The position numbers and the translations under genes are program-made. Below, piece after piece: positions 17,487-50,300 of a stretch of 64,000 bases of DNA. The notes below the pieces were generated by a model, which did no database searches, was not told the DNA's origin, and saw only the letters and a program-made list of their open reading frames with translations. Within the stretch, counting starts at the first letter, position 1. Each line of letters opens with the position of its first letter. Source of the stretch: Parietichytrium sp. I65-24A (lineage: Eukaryota > Sar > Bigyra > Thraustochytrida > Thraustochytriidae); assembly GCA_012862575.1 (NCBI GenBank), contig BLSF01000094.1, positions 1-64,000 on the forward strand, given 5' to 3'.

Positions 17487-20400
17487 TTACTGCAATGTGA
17501 TTTTGAAAGGCATCGAGATAAACTCGTGCACTGGCTTTCGCAGCACAACGGAATTGTTCTCGCTGTCAATCATGAACGGCACTTCAACGCCGCGAGAGTT
17601 CTTGGCGCTTGTGACGGCATCAGTGACACCAAATACGACGATACGCTCGACTTCTAGCTTTGGCTTGAAGCCGTTGCCGCAGTCGAGATTGGACTCGATG
17701 ATACCCTCGGACATGGTCATTTTGGCAGTGCAGGACGCTCCGCTCTGATACATGAAGCTGGACTCATCATCGACATAGAGAGAACCAGACGCGCTCTTGG
17801 TATTTGGGTCAAGCGCGATGAACAGAGAATAAGGGTCCTTGGCCATCATAGCCGAGCTCCTTCGTACGCGAAGTTTACGAGGCACGATGGAGCCTGCGCG
17901 CTGAAAGACCGGAATTTTGTCCAGAGACGCTTCCTCGATTATCGTTGAGCCACCGAGCTGAAGCTTGTGAGGCGCCTCGAATTGGTACCACGCTGTCCCT
18001 TTTGGAAGGTATACTCCTGTGGAAGTAGCGCCTGCGTCGGTAATGGGTTTTACCAGCAAGTCAAATCCGACCAGCCACTGATCTCCGATGGGGAAGGTCG
18101 CTTCGTCGTCAGGAGCCAAGTACCATAGAGGACGCATCACAGGTGCGCCGGTAAGCTCGTGCTCGCGAAAGATGGTGTACCAGAGAGGCAGGAGGGAGTA
18201 TCGCACTTTGACTGATTTGGCGATGCGCCCAAGCACTTGAGTGCCGAAGAGCCAAGGCTCCCTCCTTTTGGTGTCAATATGAGCGTGGGCCCGGAAGAAA
18301 GGCTGAAAGGCGCCTGCCTGGTACCACCGCTGCAAGAGCTCCGTATCGGGGTTATGGAAAAAGCCGCCTACGTCAGCACCAACGAACGGAAGCCCGGCAA
18401 TGTTCATGCTCAAGAGCATGTGCGACGCGATTTTGAGGTGCGACCACTGGGCAGCATTGTCTCCAGTCCATATCGCCCCATGCCTCTGTGAACCAGCAAA
18501 GAAAGACCGAGAAAGCACGAAAGGTCGCTTGACGCGCGGGTCGCTGAGCCCCGTCACTGAATGCTGCTTCTGAAACCTGCGAATAAGACCCTGAGAAGTG
18601 GCCATATGGTGATAAAAGCCGTAAAGGTTGTGCCATTCGCGATGCTCCACTCCGTCGAGTGACAGCGTCTGCTTGTGCATGGACACCTCCGGGCCGTTAA
18701 AGACAGAAGGCTCGTTCATGTCGTTCCAGATGAAGAGATGCTCGTTGCTGCCAATGTACTTGTCGAAAGCGAATTGGTCCGCCCACCAATCGCGAACCTT
18801 TGCATTCGTAAAATCTGGGTAGGAAGAATCTCCGGGCCAGCACCAGCCGTTAAATTCTTTTTTGCCATCCTTGTCTTGGGTGTAGAGATTCTGATCCATG
18901 GCCTCCTTATGAATGTAGTAGTTGTTGTCTCGCTTGATGTGTGGGTCAACAATGGTCACGATCTTCCTTCCGTACTGCGCGACATTGTCGATCATGTTTA
19001 GAGGCGTTGGGAACTTGTCCTTGTCCCAGGTGAAATAGCGCTTTCCATCAGTGTGCTCAATGTCTAGCCAAATCACGTCGTAAGGCAAGTCATGCTTCTC
19101 GAACTGTTCGTTGACTTCGCGGACGTCTTTTTCGTCTCGGTAATTCCACCGGCATTGGTGGTATGCAAGAGAAAACATGGGCGGCGTTGGGGTGGTGCCC
19201 GTCAGGGAAGCGTACTGTTTGTTGACCGCACCAGGTTCAGGGCCGACCATGACCATGAGGTCCACGACTCCGCTCTCGCTAATCCATCGAATGTCCTTTC
19301 CAGCGGAGTCCGCGGAGTCTGTAATGTCCACAAAGGTCTCCGAAGGGTTATTCCAAAAGATCCCGGAGGTAGAACCGGCCTTGTGTGCAACAACGACTGG
19401 AATATGGCCGTAGAGCGCCATGGCCTCGTCCAATTCGTACTCGAACACGTCCAGATTATACATACGGTAAGGCTCCGTGAAAGCATCAGCGCCGCCCCTC
19501 GTGCTCTTCAGAGAGAAAGGCGCGGCGTGCTCAGGAATTCCGTACACATGCTTGTAACCTACAAAGGAGACATCCATGCCAACAGACATGTGGCCTTTCG
19601 GCTTATTGTCGGTATGGCCACCGAATGACTCGGGAGCCTCCGTGTGGATCTTGAGAACCTCTTCGACCTTGTTCTCTTCTTGCTCGTCCTTTTCCCCATC
19701 TTCATAGATAGGCTTGCCGTCCTCTCCCCAGTCCAAAATCTTCCTCTCGGCATTTGGCTTGCTCTTGCTTCCCTCCAAGCTATCGCCTAGGCCGCTCGCG
19801 GACCCAGCTTGTCCGGCGTCTGCCTTTTGTTGCCGTTGCTCAAAGTACAGCTTGCCTTCTTTGTTAACCCAGACGATCGGCGCTCCACCAGCGCCGTCCA
19901 AGACTGCGACACTGAAAGGAGATTTGTACACGCGAGCGAAGATTTTCCCGTCCTGACTCTGCAGCTCAAAGGACTCTGCGGATTCTTCGCCCAGCTTCAT
20001 CTTACTGGCGTGGTTCTGAACAGACTCCACCAAAACATCTGGCGGCTCATAACGCGGCTCCATGCCCTCTCTCTCCAACTCTGTGATGCGCATCCTAAGA
20101 ACCCCCGACTCGTACGTCTGGAAGCTCATTGCCAAAGGGCTTCCGCCGCCCACGCTCACCTTGGCGGTGACAGACATTGAGTCTTGCGCCAACGCAGCCG
20201 ATCCATCTTCAACCACGTACTAGACATCCATTTCCCCCATCAGCAGTTCATGCATTCCCGAGTCCATCATGAAATCACGAAATCAGAAACCCGTCAACCA
20301 GCAAAACCGTCGAGCACAAGCAGCCAAAGACACACCAGCACATTACACATTACACCAAACACATTTCAACCCAGTCAGTCTCACTCTCTGCCACACACAC

Positions 20401-32298: not shown

Positions 32299-34371
32299 TC
32301 ACAAGATCGTGCAGTGCTGGCTTCGTTTTTGTTTTAGATGATCTAGCTTGCCCTTCCGTTCCAAGTGCAAGACGAGCTCTACGTCGTACAGATGCTCCCT
32401 GGAGCGGAAATTAAAGCCGTCTATCTTGTCCTCATCTCCGAGGACCACCTTTTTATATTTTGCTTCATTATTGCGAGTCTCCAGGTCAGCCTGTGACACT
32501 GCATTGATTGAGTTTGATGGAGGCTTCCAGTTCGGTTTTGCTTTGCCTGTCTCGAATTGTGCCCAGTCAATGTCGCGGAAAAACGGATGCGCTTTAATTT
32601 GTTCGGCGGTGTCCGGTTGCGTTCCAAGGCGTTTGTACCTATCCTTATCGAACATCATGGTAATGAGGTCCTTTGCATCTTCTGGAAACGGCTCGTCAGC
32701 AACGTTTGGAAAGTTGACTTGGCAATTCAAAGTGGCTTCATTTCTGTCCTTGAATTTGCTCAGGCTTTCTGAGAATGGGCACTGACCAGTAATAAGTTCG
32801 AATAGAGTTGAAGCCCAGCTCCACCAGTCAGCATCAAAAGCATACCCTTCCCCTTTGATCATCTCTGGGGGCCAGTATCCGGGCGTTCCTGCTCTACCTC
32901 TTATCAACTTATTCCCGCGTGTATAAGGGGTAAACTTTACGAGAACGGCCAGGCCCATGTCAGAGATCTTGGTGTGACCAGAGTCGTCAAGGAGGACATT
33001 CTCAGGCTTGAGGTCCCTGTAAATAATGCCAAGATTGTGCATGTGCTGTACACCGAGCAATATTTCGGCCGCGAAGAATTTCGCGCGTTCCACGCCGTAA
33101 CCTTTGTGCTCACGCATAATATGGAATGCTAGATCTCCGCCTGTCATAAGAGGCAGGCCAAAGTACATGTCTGACTCTTCCATGAATGCGTACGACAATG
33201 ACACACAGAAAGGGGAGGGAAACTCTCCGAGCTTTTTCAGGATTTCAAACTCTCCCTTCACGAGCTTGAGGACTTTTTTCCCTTTGACCAGCTTGCGATT
33301 CATGCCTTTAAGAGCCACAAGCTGGCCAGTAATGCGATGACGTGCGCCGGAAACCACACCGAACGCGCCCCTCCCAAGATCACGGAAGATGACAAAATCT
33401 GACATCCGAATGTCCTTGGTCAGTGTATACCATGTGAGCTGCCGGTATCGGTCGACGGCCGTCAAGTCAGACTTAAACTCGTTGAACACAGACTTGTGGA
33501 AGTCTCGCAACGTGAGATCGAGGTTGTCAAAGAATCCTGCAAACTGAGGATGAAAGTGCTCTTCGAGAGCAATAATAGCTTGTATCTTGTCGTCCGAGAT
33601 GTCACATCCTTCAATGCCGCTGAACCGGCTCGAGTTAAGGGTTGCCATCCGCATCATCGCAGATTGAGAGAGTTTCTTGGAGCTTATTTGGGAGGAGGCT
33701 ACGCTCGGCGAAGACAGCTTCGATCTGACATCCGAGAAGCTCTTGCCGCGGTCTTCGGGAGCAGTTGGTATGTCTTCGTCCTTACCTGTTCTTTTGCTTT
33801 CCTCCACTTCGCCATCCTCGTTCACCATGTCTCCTTCTGGCGCTTCAGAGACAGTAGACGAGAGAAGCTCGTGGGAAGGGTTGCCGGGGTCGTTCACAAC
33901 CCGGAGCATTTGCTCCTTGCGGGTCTCGTATTCTGTCTTTAGATCTTCCAGCTCGACTTTCAGCTTTTCAGCCGAAGATGCAAACTTCGGAAGGCCAATG
34001 AGCAACTTTGAGGTTTTCGACACAAATCTCTCCACAAGAATCATAGAGTAGTGCTTCTCGAGACGAAAGTCTTCCAAAATGCGAATAAGGCTTCCAAATG
34101 CCTCGACCTCATTCTCTTTCATGCCATCTGACTCCAACTGCAGTAGCTTCTCCACCAGGAAATATCGCCCAACCGGCGTGCTGAACAGTTTGTCAAAGTC
34201 TATCTCTTGGGCAAACGCTTCGAGGGTCTGCGCAGAGACGACATCCTTTGGCAAGCTGGGCCATGTCTCCAACACTGCTTCGGCGATTGCGTCCTCTGGG
34301 CTCACCACGCTCTTTTTCCGAATGGCCTGATTATAGTGATGGTCCGTGATGAAGTCCTGAATGTCGTCCAT
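32299..34371 (-). CDS. GRK-like RGS/AGC protein kinase with C-terminal CaaX-like box (copy 1)
   Basis: 690 aa, one exon, ATG at 34371. A helical RGS-like region (about 48-125 and again 262-315) is split by a Ser-rich, charged insert (about 150-255). The kinase domain (325-590) is complete: GRGAFGVV (333-340), catalytic Lys355 in LVALK, YRDLKPENVL (Asp453), DMG in place of the usual GRK DLG (Asp471), and RAGTPGYWPPEMIK. The AGC tail with KPNWKPPSNSINAVS follows, and the last residues are CTIL, a CaaX-like box ending in Leu as for geranylgeranylation. Known GRKs phosphorylate activated GPCRs, and some retinal forms are prenylated. It is paralogous to the kinase at 37616-39322 (both begin MDDI and share the ISDMGLA motif). 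Confidence 0.92.
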   Translation of the reverse strand: MDDIQDFITDHHYNQAIRKKSVVSPEDAIAEAVLETWPSLPKDVVSAQTLEAFAQEIDFDKLFSTPVGRYFLVEKLLQLESDGMKENEVEAFGSLIRILEDFRLEKHYSMILVERFVSKTSKLLIGLPKFASSAEKLKVELEDLKTEYETRKEQMLRVVNDPGNPSHELLSSTVSEAPEGDMVNEDGEVEESKRTGKDEDIPTAPEDRGKSFSDVRSKLSSPSVASSQISSKKLSQSAMMRMATLNSSRFSGIEGCDISDDKIQAIIALEEHFHPQFAGFFDNLDLTLRDFHKSVFNEFKSDLTAVDRYRQLTWYTLTKDIRMSDFVIFRDLGRGAFGVVSGARHRITGQLVALKGMNRKLVKGKKVLKLVKGEFEILKKLGEFPSPFCVSLSYAFMEESDMYFGLPLMTGGDLAFHIMREHKGYGVERAKFFAAEILLGVQHMHNLGIIYRDLKPENVLLDDSGHTKISDMGLAVLVKFTPYTRGNKLIRGRAGTPGYWPPEMIKGEGYAFDADWWSWASTLFELITGQCPFSESLSKFKDRNEATLNCQVNFPNVADEPFPEDAKDLITMMFDKDRYKRLGTQPDTAEQIKAHPFFRDIDWAQFETGKAKPNWKPPSNSINAVSQADLETRNNEAKYKKVVLGDEDKIDGFNFRSREHLYDVELVLHLERKGKLDHLKQKRSQHCTIL

Positions 34372-37615: not shown

Positions 37616-39322
37616 ATGGACGACATCGCGGCCTGCATCAAGGACCACCAGTACAATGAGGCCATTCGGAAGACCTTCGTGGACCCGGAAGACGCTCTGG
37701 TCAAGGCGATCGTGGAAAAAGTTCCGGTGACCAAGAAGAAGAACAACCCCATGCCTCCGCTGGAGGAGTATATCGCGGAAGTGACGCTGGAGAAGATGAT
37801 GTTGTCCAGTCTGGGCAGATTCTATCTGTGCGAGAATGTCGGGGAAAATAGTATGGAGCTCAGCGGCAAGGGATTGGAGATGCTGCAAGAGTGGTTTGAC
37901 ATTTACCACCAATACATCAAGGCAAACTCGTGCTCTAAGACGATTGCCGACATGCTATGGTCGAAACTGAGGAAAACTCTGGCAAAGACCAAACTTGAGC
38001 TCAAGGAAGAGACAGAAGAGACTCAGACCAGGTTGTCAAACCAGTCATTCCAGGATGCTCCGGGCTCAACTCTGGTAACCATCTTCGAGCCACTGGTAAA
38101 GAAGCTTGAGAAAGATTTATTCACAAAGGCTTTTACGGCCTTCAAAGCCAACGAGCCCCAGACTCGCCGATATCAAGAAGTCATGTGGTACCGCGAGAAG
38201 CCGCCTTGCATGGACGATTTTATTGTTTTTCGCGACCTTGGCCGAGGCGCTTTCGGGGTCGTGTCCGGGGCAAGGCATCGAGTTACTGGCCAGCTCGTGG
38301 CGTTGAAAGGGATGAACAGGAAACTCATCAAAGGCAAGAATGTGCTCAAGATGGTCAAGGTCGAGTTCGAAGTTCTCAAGGCTTTGGGAGAGAACCCTTC
38401 TCCATTTTGCGTTTCACTGCATTTTTCTTTCATGGATCCGGCAGAGCTGTTTTTCGGGCTACCTCTATGTACTGGGGGAGACCTGGCTTTCCATCTTCGC
38501 TCAAATCGTCGCGGATTTGGAGTGGAGCGCGCCCGCTTCTTTGCTGCTGAGGTGCTGTTGGGGATTGAGCACTTGCACAGCTTGGGCATTCTCTACCGCG
38601 ATTTAAAACCAGAGAACGTGTTGGTAGATGATAAGGGGCACTGTAAAATTAGCGACATGGGTCTTGCAATCCTAACAGGATACACCCCAAGAAACATTGG
38701 CAACATCACGTACACTGCTAAAGCTGGAACACAAGGGTATTGGCCGCCTGAAATGATTAAGAGAGAAGGATACGCCTTTGACGCGGATTGGTGGAGTTAC
38801 GGGGTAATGTTGTATGAGTTTCTCGTTGGGGTGTGCGCATTCTCCGAGTCGCACACCAAGTGCAAGGACAGGAACGAGGCAACATTGACATGGGAAATCC
38901 AATTTCCGTCAAAGTGCTGTGACGACCCCTTCCCAATCGAGGCCAAGTCACTGATCTTGCAGTTGCTCGATCGCAATCGGACCGTGCGCGTAGGGGCGAT
39001 GCCTGACGCGGTGGAGAGAATTAAAGCTCACCCATTCTTTGGGTCCATTGTATGGGAGGAGATTGCAACAGGCAATGCCACGCCACCTTGGGTGCCACCA
39101 GGGGACTCTATAAATGCAGCTTCACAGGAGGAGATCCAAGAAAGAAGTAAGGAGCACGAATTTAAAAAGCTGAAACTGACAGACGACGATAACATCGAAG
39201 GGATCGCCTATGCGTCAATGAACTTTGAACGTGATCTCGTCAATGTTTTGCGTCTCGAGCACGAGGGAAAGCTTAAACACCTTGACGGCAATGGAGGAAG
39301 TAGTGCATGTGCAATTTTGTAA
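37616..39322 (+). CDS. GRK-like RGS/AGC protein kinase with C-terminal CaaX-like box (copy 2)
   Basis: 568 aa, one exon, ATG at 37616 (AAAAATGGAC). It resembles copy 1 but lacks most of the Ser-rich insert; residues about 48-190 form a reduced RGS-like region. The kinase domain (202-465) has GRGAFGVV, Lys231 in LVALK, YRDLKPENVLVDD, SDMGLA, and KAGTQGYWPPEMIK, where Gln replaces Pro in the GTPGY motif. The tail ends CAIL, a second CaaX-like box. Its N-terminal DHQYNEAIRK matches DHHYNQAIRK of copy 1, so the two arose by an inverted local duplication. Substrates are probably membrane receptors or their regulators. Confidence 0.92.
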   Translation: MDDIAACIKDHQYNEAIRKTFVDPEDALVKAIVEKVPVTKKKNNPMPPLEEYIAEVTLEKMMLSSLGRFYLCENVGENSMELSGKGLEMLQEWFDIYHQYIKANSCSKTIADMLWSKLRKTLAKTKLELKEETEETQTRLSNQSFQDAPGSTLVTIFEPLVKKLEKDLFTKAFTAFKANEPQTRRYQEVMWYREKPPCMDDFIVFRDLGRGAFGVVSGARHRVTGQLVALKGMNRKLIKGKNVLKMVKVEFEVLKALGENPSPFCVSLHFSFMDPAELFFGLPLCTGGDLAFHLRSNRRGFGVERARFFAAEVLLGIEHLHSLGILYRDLKPENVLVDDKGHCKISDMGLAILTGYTPRNIGNITYTAKAGTQGYWPPEMIKREGYAFDADWWSYGVMLYEFLVGVCAFSESHTKCKDRNEATLTWEIQFPSKCCDDPFPIEAKSLILQLLDRNRTVRVGAMPDAVERIKAHPFFGSIVWEEIATGNATPPWVPPGDSINAASQEEIQERSKEHEFKKLKLTDDDNIEGIAYASMNFERDLVNVLRLEHEGKLKHLDGNGGSSACAIL

Positions 39323-45953: not shown

Positions 45954-47330
45954 TCAAAGCATGTTTTGCATTTTTTGATCATTCTGGTATGGAGACACAT
46001 TGTATCCTGTCTGAGGGGCGGTGAAAGCGCCCGCTCTCTGCTGCTTCTTCTTGTACAAGGTGACACCAGCAACGAGAGCCACGCATCCTGCTGCGGCGCC
46101 GACTCCGATTCCAAGGTAAGATCCGACGCTTGCAGTGCTGCTGCTCGCAGACTCGTCCAAATCGAAGCCGTCAGTGACTTCGTTGACTCCGTATGGAAGG
46201 CACTGGCTGTACCACTGGTGTGAGTACTTGCAGTAGGTTCCATCCGGGCAGCAAGTGGATCCGCCCCAGTTCTGTCCGCCGCACTGTCCCCAAACTCCGT
46301 TGCTGCAAGATGCTGGAGCGTTAGTTGGTGGAGCGGTTGGGGTGGTGCCTCCGGAGCCAGTGCCTCCAGTGTTGATTCCGGTGTTACCTCCAGGGGTGCC
46401 TCCAGCAGCAGTCACAACCCTGGTGTTTTTGTTTGCCCGGCTGAGCATGTGGAAGTTTCCGGTGTACTGTGGGTGGACAGCAGGAAGACCAACCATGAGA
46501 GCGTACAGAGGCTTGCCTTGGGTGGTGCCATCGTTGTCAGAGCCAAGGCAGACAGAGCGCGAGTCGGCAGTGCCGCCATCGCAGCGGGCGAGGTCAGCGA
46601 CGGCTCCAGAGCAGTCAGGAGAGTTCTGGCCATTGATGCCGCGGCATCCGAGGTGGGTGTTGGTGCCGCTGAACATGCATTGCCCAGTTGCGGACACAGT
46701 GGAGCCAATCTTGGAGTTCATGTGGCTGATGGCATCGTCGACGAAGTCCCACTGGGTCTGGGTTCCGTCGGTTGGCTTACCAGTCACAGCGCTTCCTCCA
46801 GACACACGGAAGTTGTGGCAGTTGGAGTAGCTGGTGTGAGGCATATACTTGACTCCGTTGCTGTCCTGGTTTCCGTAGGTTACGATTTTCATGGTGTATT
46901 CACCATCAGCAAGGTAGCTTGGGATGGTGAGGGAAGACTTGCACATCAGGTTCTGGAAGTCCACACCATCCCCTCCGAGGCCAAACTCGTCAGCGTATGG
47001 TGACATGCATCCGCGGTTGTAGCATGTCATGTAAATGATGTTCTCGGCGCTGTCAAATGCACCCTGGGACGCCGAGGTATCTCCTTGCGCTTGGCTCAGT
47101 GGAAGCACGCTGACCTGAACGAAACCACTCATGTGGTTGTTGCGGCCCCAGCTCAGATCCACGGAGTTGCCGCGAGCATAGGTTGCGGAGATGCCGGTGC
47201 TGGTTCCGCATTCGTTGTTGTTATTGTTCACATGGACGCTGTATTCCCTCGGGGCTGGGCTTGCGAAGATGGTGTGACCTTCCGCAGAGAAGGCCAGGGT
47301 CGCAGCCGCGAGAATGGAAAAGACCTGCAT
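45954..47330 (-). CDS. Secreted LPMO-like copper oxidase with CBM1 and C-terminal membrane anchor
   Basis: 458 aa, one exon. Signal peptide [18 protein letters not shown] is followed by His19, which becomes the N-terminal residue if cleavage occurs there, as in lytic polysaccharide monooxygenases (LPMOs). His66 in [16 protein letters not shown] would complete a histidine brace. The catalytic-like part (19 to about 230) contains paired cysteines (MTCYNRGC) and [16 protein letters not shown], then a Cys-rich stretch to about 300. A Gly/Thr/Pro linker (about 309-341) leads to a CBM1 (342-379: [17 protein letters not shown] with QWYSQC), the fungal-type cellulose-binding module. A helix (404-426) and a basic stop-transfer KKKQQR follow, then a 30-residue tail. 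The sequence pattern is nearer oomycete/protist LPMO-like families than AA9. Copper activity and substrate are unproven. Confidence 0.8.
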
Positions 47331-50300
47331 CTTATAGTTGCTTTACAAATAACCAGCTTACAGAGCTTGCTTTGCTGCTTGCTTTGCTGTTGCTTGCTGA
47401 TTTGGTGTTTTGCTTGATTTGGTGTTTGCAATCCCACTTGCTTCAACTTCATTTCGACTCGGCCAACCTGAGCACCCAACTGGCGCAATGAGGAAACTAG
47501 CCCTTCTACGAACTTTGCTGCTTGCTTGCGTTGACAGTGACAATCACAATACCAATAACAATGGCAACGACACTGACATTGAATACCAGGCTCTGGCATG
47601 GAGTCTATGCCTGGTTGGTTAATTTGGCCATCCCAGTTCCAAAATATATACCGGTGATTGTGCCCAGACCCGAGCGACTACAGTTCCGCACCCGTACCTT
47701 CTTGGCGCGAGAGGGGGAGAGGGGCGATTTGAAGCGGGCACTGGGGGCGTTTGCGCACATTGCCCACTGCTCTGCCAGTATCAGTATCGTTATCAGCATC
47801 AGCATCAACATCAGCATCAATATCGATACCGGTAAGTCAGATTGGCATGCAACCTTCGCAAAACGAGCGTGTGTCAAATGTGCCGGAGCAAAGAAGGGAG
47901 CCCTGGGCATTCTAGCTCATTATAATATGTGCGGCAAAAGGGGGAGGGGGAAGCCTGAGGTGATAGGCTAGCGCGCCAAGTGCGTAGTGTTGTTGCCGGC
48001 GATCGAGGGATGCTTTGACACCATTTCAGCACCCTCAGTGTTGGAATGAGGCAGTGACTTCTCTCAAGTTGCTAGCCAGCGAATAAGTCATGGCAGTGGT
48101 TGCTGGTAGGGGTGTTGTAATCGGAGCGAAAAGGTGCGCACGCTGGTTGACAGTCGGGAGTGGAGTGGGCCCACTCACGCATGCGCGCCGCGCTACGACT
48201 CTCTCGTGCTTTGGTAGAGCTCGAGATTGTTGATGAATTGCGATTGATTGTGTGAACGAGCAGAAGATGCGAAATGGATATTTGTTCCTTTCGCGTGGGA
48301 TGCATTGATCCCGTTTGATGGTATCTTCCATTGCATTCTGTCTGATTGGTACTCAGTACAGTACGGTATATGCTCGTGCGCGGCTGATGGTCCATCGCGT
48401 GGCGACTAGCGGGAGATGGCGCTTGCCGGCATGCCAAATGAAAAGCTTTTGCGCATTCGCAGTCATACTTTTGCTCCTTTTCAACCTGACTCTGAAAAAA
48501 GCAGCAACTTTCTTCTCCATATGAAGTGACTGATTGTCTTTTCGCCGTGCATGCTACGCCCGTGAATGTTACCGATACTGAAAACGAGAATCCATTTCTC
48601 GGCATTTCAAATGATTTCGGGGAGGCTACAACCGCTGCTTAAAGATTATAATTCATGAGTCAGAAGAGCGTGTGGATGGGGGTGGATACTTTGGTGCTCG
48701 GTCCCCCGAACGACGCCGAGTAGACCTGGCGCTAGCTCCTCACTCCTTGTACCGGTAATGAAGCATTTCGCTCGACAACAGTCCAAAGCCAGGTTTCTAT
48801 CGACAGCTTTTCAGCTTGAAATCATTATGAATGAACAAACAAGCGAATATACAAACGCACAAACAAACGCAGTTACGAACATTGATCGAAACGAAATTTC
48901 CACGTTCGAAGTTGCCTTTCATCCAAGACATACAAGCTCCCTAGTGACAATTAGAACCCCACTAATTGCATCCACCCATCCTCACGAGGGAATCGCTACG
49001 ACCTCCTTATCCAAATCCATAACTAGACGCAAATGCTATGTGTGTACTGCCCAAAACATTAGGATAGAATTGAACGTGTTCACTAGCGGATGGATAGGGT
49101 GTGAACTACTGTGGGAAAACATGGCACAAGCCGCATTGTGTTTTGTAAATGTATTCTACAGTTAGTTCACAAGCCAACCCAAAAGACCCAAAAGAAATCA
49201 GAATAATTAGTTCAGAACTTGAGAGTTCACAGTCAGTACTCGCAACAGCAAAAGCGACGCTCGGTCAATAACGAAGTGGCAAACAACATCGTGGAGATGT
49301 CAAGTATTTCGAGTATCTGTAGCGCCGGTCCATCGGTGTGCGACTTCGAAGCAAGCAAGGTTTGAAGAGTGGAATTTGGAGCCGTCGGCGCTGGCAAGAG
49401 ATGGAGAGAGCTGGCAAGAGCACTTGCTCTCTGTCATGCTGTCCCTGGCTTGGTCAAGATTGCATTGCCTGCCACGGTACCACTTTGTGCAACGGGGGGA
49501 ATAGTGTCTGGCCACCTTTATTCATAGTATTTATAGGCTGGCGCACGGAGGACTTTGTCCCGTGGCAAAGCCATGGCGTAGAAGGTAAACGCGCTCGAGA
49601 GAGAGGGCGTTGCGTGGATTGCATTGATTTTGCACTGCCTGGTAATGCCTGGGACCTCAGCTTGGGTTCCGCTCCGTTTGAGCCGGTGTTTGTCCTACCA
49701 AGAAAGAGTCTGTTCTGCTGAGCCGGCGCGATTGATCTCTTGTTCTCTCTTCTTCAAGCTTAACAGCGGAACTAGTACTGAGTACGGTCGATTTTCGGTT
49801 ATCATCGAAAGCCGAGGCAAAGAAAGAAAGAAAGAAAGAAAAGGGTGAAGGACACTTCGGCGAGGGATGGCGCACGAGCTTAAAATATCGATTGATTTTA
49901 ACATACTTTTGGACGTGGACTTGTGCCCGGGGGTCCCGGGGGTCCCGGGGGGGAGGGGGGTTATTGTTTAAATCTGCTTTTCTTCTTGTTTTTGTCGTTG
50001 CATATCTGATTTCACTGTTAACAGCGAAAAGGCACGGATCTGACTTCGCTTTTTGAGTGTGCGTTTGTAAGGGGGAAAGCGCACTTGGAGTCCGTGGCTC
50101 TTGGATTCAAGCGCTAGTCACTGACTCCGAAGTGTGCTCATTTCACGTCCCTCGAACGGCATTGCATCCGTACACGATACGCGCAGCGTGGACGGCGATA
50201 GAGTATGGTGAGGAAGCAGAGAAGGGGGAGGGGTGGAACATCAGATTTCAGAATTCAGGTTCAGATTTCGTGTTTGTCGAGGCAATTGTTTTTATCTCGT

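Follow-up and report, generated by a model that had tools for sequence, protein, structure and literature searches.

A gene on the minus strand of the window (the whole 64,000-nucleotide stretch of DNA analysed here) encodes a type-I membrane protein in which a hydrophobic N-terminus is followed by a histidine-led LPMO-like domain, a second conserved region, a linker, a CBM1, a transmembrane (TM) helix and a basic tail (Table 1). With a probability of roughly 60%, this protein would be a surface-tethered, contact-acting polysaccharide oxidase with a His19/His66 copper brace, Tyr168 as the axial residue, a TM helix as its tether and a CBM1 carried on the linker, a proposal that draws on the sequence and on a structural model. 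The source genome also encodes nine full paralogs, and the anchor is shared with CBM1-bearing members of two further LPMO-like families.

Table 1. Features of the tethered LPMO-like gene, in window coordinates
Feature	Coordinates	Strand	Basis
Whole gene, type-I membrane LPMO-like protein, 458 aa, intronless	45954..47330	-	open frame
Signal peptide, residues 1-18	47277..47330	-	hydrophobic; A at -3, G at -1 (rule only)
LPMO-like domain, residues 19-180	46791..47276	-	family alignment, sub-threshold AA9 matches, Foldseek with the pLDDT 47.3 model
His19, putative N-terminal copper-brace histidine	47274..47276	-	invariant in 10/10 family members
His66 (RNNH), putative second brace histidine	47133..47135	-	9/10 members
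Tyr168 in HxSYxNCxN, putative axial ligand	46827..46829	-	invariant in 10/10 members
Second conserved region, residues 181-300, cysteine-rich	46431..46790	-	family alignment
G/T/P linker, residues 303-341	46308..46424	-	sequence
CBM1, residues 342-378	46197..46307	-	PF00734 above cut-off
Transmembrane helix, residues 407-425	46056..46112	-	Kyte-Doolittle mean 1.98
Cytoplasmic tail, residues 426-458, starts YKKK	45957..46055	-	sequence

The gene begins with ATG, requires no intron, and lies within an uninterrupted frame of 462 codons with zero internal stops. His19 directly follows A-E-G, in agreement with the -3/-1 rule; the signal peptide was called by this sequence rule only and the TM helix by hydropathy. 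The CBM_1 model (PF00734) matched residues 347-374 (WGQCGG...YSHQWYSQC) with an E-value of 1.1e-8 and 35.2 bits, well above its cut-off of 20.6 bits, and the same match had an E-value of 5.6e-8 in the genome search. The helix is followed by 33 polar, basic residues that start YKKKQQR. A GPI anchor was considered and rejected on inspection of the sequence, as this tail continues past the helix and the extreme C-terminus holds no hydrophobic stretch. A sequence-only reading of this gene had named a signal peptide ending before His19, a second histidine in RNNH, a G/T/P linker, a CBM1 and a TM helix with a KKK stop, and each of these elements was recovered. The second region matched no Pfam family in the window protein and gave nothing beyond one chance-level match across the ten family members. 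A PDB profile search with this region returned mS37 at an E-value of about 0.02, which was taken as chance. Upstream of the gene, hexamer repeats of the ATCAGC/ATCAAC type were observed at window positions 47760-47830.

Paralogs were identified by searching the source genome (42.54 Mb, 172 contigs) with the window protein. This search resulted in 14 places: the window gene itself, nine full paralogs with 44-69% identity to it, and four places matching only the CBM1 or the CBM1-TM part. Eight paralogs form a cluster on contig C11 (519-540 kb), the ninth is on C68 and the window copy is on C94. All ten members have a hydrophobic N-terminus followed by histidine, a TM helix and a tail. The second histidine was found at the same place in nine members and one place later, as NNIH, in L010. 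For six of the nine paralogs, dN/dS relative to the window copy was computable (280-282 codons); it ranged over 0.063-0.119, with dS at 1.4-4.8, near or past saturation. Because the ectodomain is conserved in 10/10 members, His19 and Tyr168 are invariant, and dN/dS is low, the feature is more than a chance arrangement. Within the family, a Pfam scan found CBM_1 in the window copy only. The neighbouring C11 genes L002 and L003 encode ectodomains that are identical over residues 19-300, which suggests recent duplication or gene conversion. L010 (C11, 347-1672, minus strand), whose tail is longer, possibly has a changed or lost active site, judging from its displaced histidine. When the alignment of the LPMO-like domain was used as a query, 16 pattern matches in viral contigs and 45 in prokaryote contigs were obtained and none was confirmed; these two sets are silent on other labyrinthulomycetes.

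The relation of the family to known LPMOs was then assessed at the level of profiles, sequences and models. No AA family or LPMO model in Pfam matched the window protein, and none of the ten members was above the AA9 (PF03443) cut-off of 27.8 bits; by this measure the family is not a member of AA9. Four of the ten did match AA9 below the cut-off, the best being L009 (E 3.4e-5, 24.3 bits), whose residues 34-193 aligned to profile positions 36-180 of 207. In the whole-genome search, the matches listed for PF03443 were on C45 and C12 only, and no member of the window family matched LPMO_10 (PF03067) at E<=1 or appeared among its genome matches. A phmmer search of PDB with L009 returned four matches at E<=10, all AA9/GH61 (best 0.0076) and all variants of one enzyme; in the alignment Y-x-x-C was matched and the SYxNC-type tyrosine fell on the AA9 tyrosine. 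With the family profile, the best of the five PDB matches listed was 7ova, an AA9 LPMO by its title, at a non-significant 0.076, and the other four were unrelated. In sub-threshold alignments, Tyr168 sits on the tyrosine of YPQC in 7ova and of FYQSC in 9bjs. The axial Tyr/Phe that the sequence-only reading had said should be sought is thus best read as Tyr168, this putative ligand and the second brace histidine His66 both being present by sequence and not by geometry.

Profile-profile comparison with hhalign paired the LPMO-like domain with the L011 family described below at an E-value of 0.0068, with a probability of only 5.6%; RNNH was paired with AKNH, and the Tyr-Cys motifs were placed together. 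Against the AA9 pair, nothing was found with either the LPMO-like domain (E 0.19) or the second region. The comparison of alignments A4 and A5 (1.9e-15) took in linker, CBM1 and TM helix, and was set aside for the catalytic domains. An AlphaFold2 model of residues 19-300, made without an alignment, had a pLDDT of 34.5 and was discarded. The single-sequence model of residues 19-181 (163 residues; pLDDT 47.3, pTM 0.46) was used as a lead only. When it was searched in Foldseek, all 12 matches at E<=0.001 were LPMOs, as were the top 19 rows among the best 50 of 1449 matches, namely AA9 with AA15 once; these 19 rows had TM-scores of only 0.39-0.48 by model length. Foldseek also uses sequence, so these matches and the sequence hints are not independent lines of evidence. 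VIA-align of the model gave phage baseplate chains at Z 7.9-8.0 and LPMOs at up to 7.6, an uninformative range. An AA15 structure (5msz) and AA11 chains appeared in the Foldseek and VIA lists of this low-confidence model. The four signals (Pfam, phmmer, hhalign, Foldseek) are each weak and overlap through shared sequences, Foldseek being the best of them, and together they make it probable that the window family is related to LPMOs, of which it may be a new family. The tethered, LPMO-like character and the CBM1 proposed by the sequence-only reading therefore stand, without any Pfam AA cut-off being reached in the family: of the profiles it had suggested checking, CBM1 was exceeded, and AA9 and LPMO_10 were not reached.

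Searches of the genome with L011, L012 and the PF03443, PF03067, PF24320 and PF00734 profiles as queries resulted in two more LPMO-like families, one comprising L011 and its paralogs L021-L023, the other L012 and L016. Three of the four L011-type proteins passed the DUF7492 cut-off in hmmscan, and only L011 did so in the six-frame genome search; none of the four passed that of LPMO_10, L011 matching below it. The PDB list of L011 includes AA11 chains, and DUF7492 is a candidate LPMO family. L012 and L016 are both above the AA9 and LPMO_10 cut-offs (63.0 bits to AA9 for L012). A hydrophobic helix near the C-terminus was found in all six proteins, bringing the TM-tethered LPMO-like proteins of the three families to at least 16. 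In 15/16 of these, position -3 before the histidine is occupied by A, S or V and position -1 by A or G, the start of L016 being ambiguous. The tether that had been read as a distinct feature of one protein is, judged by these sequences, the rule in this genome and not the exception.

Two other genes touch on this subject. L026 (C4, 334-2796, plus strand) encodes a protein that joins an LPMO_10 domain to a GH18 chitinase domain; between the two lie a pair of cysteine modules that repeat CHSxVSHISDxWCQ.... Judged by eye, its sequence has no obvious C-terminal helix. L025 (C3, 362-3007, minus strand) encodes a metalloprotease of the reprolysin-like (M12B) type whose C-terminus carries a hydrophobic helix and a basic tail, apparently another tethered ecto-enzyme. 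Together with a thraustochytrid phytase that is reported to have a C-terminal helix in the available text of PMC7641610, L025 hints that organisms of this group may often tether their ecto-enzymes.

CBM1 is rare in the genome: at least five copies were found at E<=0.01, every one over the cut-off. Each LPMO-like family has one, and the remaining two belong to the GH5 cellulase L014 and to L013. In the three LPMO-like proteins the CBM1 stands directly before the TM helix, and L013 and L014 show no TM helix. L014 (C4, 751-2553, plus strand) combines its GH5 cellulase domain and CBM1 with long PTTKA repeats. The CBM1s of the LPMO-like proteins share 22-27 of 39 positions with one another and 14-17 of 39 with that of the GH5 cellulase (L013 was left out). 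Over the linker-CBM1-TM part, the window protein is 44-59% identical to L011 and L012. Its juxtamembrane-TM-tail segment scored z 24.0 against L011 and 11.3 against L012, compared with 3.2-6.6 against its own nine paralogs, the segments including some residues from the end of the CBM1; the CBM1-less L021 scored 9.6 against it. If only the TM helix and its edges were compared, the CBM1-bearing pairs had a mean z of 10.9 (n=3, all between families), and CBM1-bearing against CBM1-less members within a family had a mean of 3.6 (n=13 pairs). The CBM1 trio ranked first among 80 possible trios, narrowly (10.9 vs 10.2 for the next). The mixed pair L011-L016 reached 10.6, and CBM1-less members of different families were also alike (39 pairs with a mean z of 6.6). 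YKK[KR] closes the helix in 3/3 CBM1 proteins, and A[YF]x[RKL]G[RKQ] does so in 11/13 CBM1-less proteins, spread over all three families, L009 and L010 having neither; both motifs were chosen after the sequences had been viewed. When the YKK motif was searched as a DNA pattern, the window contained a single, unrelated match, no more than chance would give.

From these sequences, it looks as if the membrane anchors of the three CBM1 proteins had been exchanged as a cassette. At the DNA level, the window gene had a single match outside its family, 147 bases at 67% to L011, which covers the linker and CBM1 (residues 331-379) and excludes the helix. Because this match misses the helix, either the exchange is old or the anchors have become alike partly through convergence. 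The tree built from the ectodomains grouped the window copy with the CBM1-less L002-L005 at a support of 87/92, below the starred level, and the internal order of this five-row group is ambiguous. As the window copy groups with CBM1-less paralogs, gain of the CBM1-anchor piece is the simplest explanation, and loss of CBM1 from the other members would be the less likely course.

The layout of the window protein resembles that of fungal AA9 LPMOs with a CBM1 in its N-terminal histidine, second histidine, Tyr-x-x-Cys, linker and C-terminal CBM1, a similarity that is weak but repeated. It differs in that 10/10 family members are below the AA9 cut-off, in the second conserved region, in the TM helix and cytoplasmic tail, and in a host that is apparently not a fungus. 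L011 (DUF7492/LPMO_10-like) and L012 (AA9) have the same order of LPMO-like domain, linker, CBM1, TM helix and YKK tail, whereas the catalytic domain of the window protein is a different one. In the available text of two reviews (PMC8615602, PMC10154629), the anchors named are GPI for AA9, AA14, AA15, AA16 and X325 and LPXTG for AA10, and the word 'transmembrane' is absent. Like X325 and some AA9, AA14, AA15 and AA16 proteins with GPI anchors described there, the window protein appears to hold an LPMO-like domain at the surface, but by a hydrophobic helix with a 33-residue basic tail. The nearest precedent for an anchored LPMO is the bacterial, sortase-anchored ScLPMO10D, which with related actinobacterial AA10s is surface-anchored and has a linker, a C-terminal hydrophobic stretch and a basic tail, and which earlier work, using an antibody, found bound to the cell wall (PMC10067821). 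Unlike the window protein, ScLPMO10D has a sortase (LAETG) signal and a covalent wall anchor (PMC10067821), and the description of its domains includes no CBM1. Relatives of ScLPMO10D in AA10 subclade A3 are, in the available text, predicted to be anchored without crosslinking; a non-covalent anchor has therefore already been predicted for some bacterial AA10s. A search of titles and the starts of abstracts in the open-licence literature found no description of a TM-anchored eukaryotic LPMO, and subscription papers may differ; in PMC12258536 the matched term was confined to the reference list. The genome of Botryochytrium contains the cellulose-binding domain IPR000254 (PMC10101102), so the group already has a described example of such a domain; the terms LPMO, AA9, CBM1 and transmembrane do not occur in the paper's main text.

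Labyrinthulomycetes feed through ectoplasmic nets. In the proposed mechanism, the TM helix would hold the LPMO-like domain and the second region outside the cell, with the CBM1 on its flexible linker just above the membrane; the plasma membrane or the ectoplasmic net is the probable site. The CBM1 would most likely bind cellulose or a similar flat crystalline polysaccharide, and the LPMO-like domain, if it has the LPMO fold and binds copper, is predicted to cut polysaccharide oxidatively at the point of contact. Reducing power or H2O2 might be supplied from the same membrane, and tethering would keep the products near the cell. We also entertain, tentatively and at somewhat less than even odds, the idea that labyrinthulomycetes have a wider system of oxidases at the cell surface. 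It would comprise three or more LPMO-like families, among them a new AA family that has a second domain of its own, all held on the membrane, plausibly that of the ectoplasmic net, through TM anchors of two interchangeable types. One anchor type, joined to a CBM1, would have been placed as a cassette on one member per family, so that each chemistry gained a version able to grip cellulose and digest on contact. Such a TM-tethered set in marine decomposers would help explain digestion by contact without enzyme release, and suggests that the walls of plants or algae could be attacked on contact and without secreted enzymes. It would also place LPMO chemistry beside membrane electron donors and provide a natural example of one CBM-plus-anchor piece common to different catalytic domains.

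Other functions were weighed against the same data. The window protein could be a non-lytic surface protein that is derived from an LPMO and captures copper, as suspected for X325/Bim1. The available text of PMC8615602 describes X325 as an LPMO-like domain that is GPI-anchored at the cell surface and suspected of a role in copper homeostasis, and nine of the ten window-family members, lacking a CBM1, would suit such a role. The CBM1 of the window copy, however, points to a polysaccharide, the invariant tyrosine suits a lytic axial site, and in place of the GPI anchor of X325/Bim1 the window protein has a TM-like anchor with a tail, which leaves copper capture unlikely.

As a non-catalytic adhesin or receptor, the protein would fasten the cell or its net onto cellulose debris through the CBM1, and its LPMO-like domain would serve for binding as a scaffold and nothing more. 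A CBM1 that neighbours a membrane anchor followed by a cytoplasmic tail could plausibly work as such a device. CBM1 is also used by the CBEL adhesins of oomycetes, and the displaced histidine of L010 suggests that the brace can change. Yet His19, His66 and Tyr168 are kept in the window copy and in nearly all paralogs at low dN/dS, and 13/16 of the tethered LPMO-like proteins have no CBM1; we regard this role as quite unlikely. That the protein is a beta-sandwich surface protein unrelated to LPMOs, its brace-like residues being coincidental, would fit the failure of all curated LPMO models to reach their cut-offs in the window family, the low-confidence model and its mixed VIA list. Such a coincidence is highly improbable, as sub-threshold signals from several methods all point toward LPMOs and as L012 and L016, which are above the AA9 cut-off, are likewise TM-tethered. 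The tethered, contact-acting polysaccharide oxidase is the reading we prefer.

The host was characterized from its mitochondrial genes. In the Thraustochytrium mitochondrial code (NCBI table 23), TTA is a stop. The COX1 (389 codons) and COX2 (250 codons) genes at L024 (C141; 35% GC of known bases) use TTA for none of 72 leucine codons and TTG for 42, while codons ending in A are mostly far commoner than those ending in G (GTA 26 vs GTG 3, GAA 19 vs GAG 0; the exception is ATA 12 vs ATG 15). Because TTA is avoided despite the dominance of A-ending codons, the host fits a thraustochytrid-type labyrinthulomycete. TTA stops are also reported for Schizochytrium in the available text of PMC7799850. 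The label 'fungal-type' that the CBM1 had been given is apt as the name of the CBM1 family; the mitochondrial codon use of the host points to a labyrinthulomycete stramenopile. The PUFA-synthase marker TIGR02813 (omega-3 PfaA) had no match above its cut-off in the genome, where such long models may miss, and thus lends the assignment no support. A 5583-residue open frame at C66:8562-19556 (plus strand) has four ketosynthase-like matches and encodes a polyketide or fatty-acid synthase. Elsewhere in the window, a GH31 glycoside hydrolase at 17490-20177 (minus strand) belongs to the only glycosidase family among the 15 other frames scanned, and two protein kinases at 32302-34371 (minus strand) and 37616-39319 (plus strand) have similar N-terminal ends (MDDI...) in opposite orientation.
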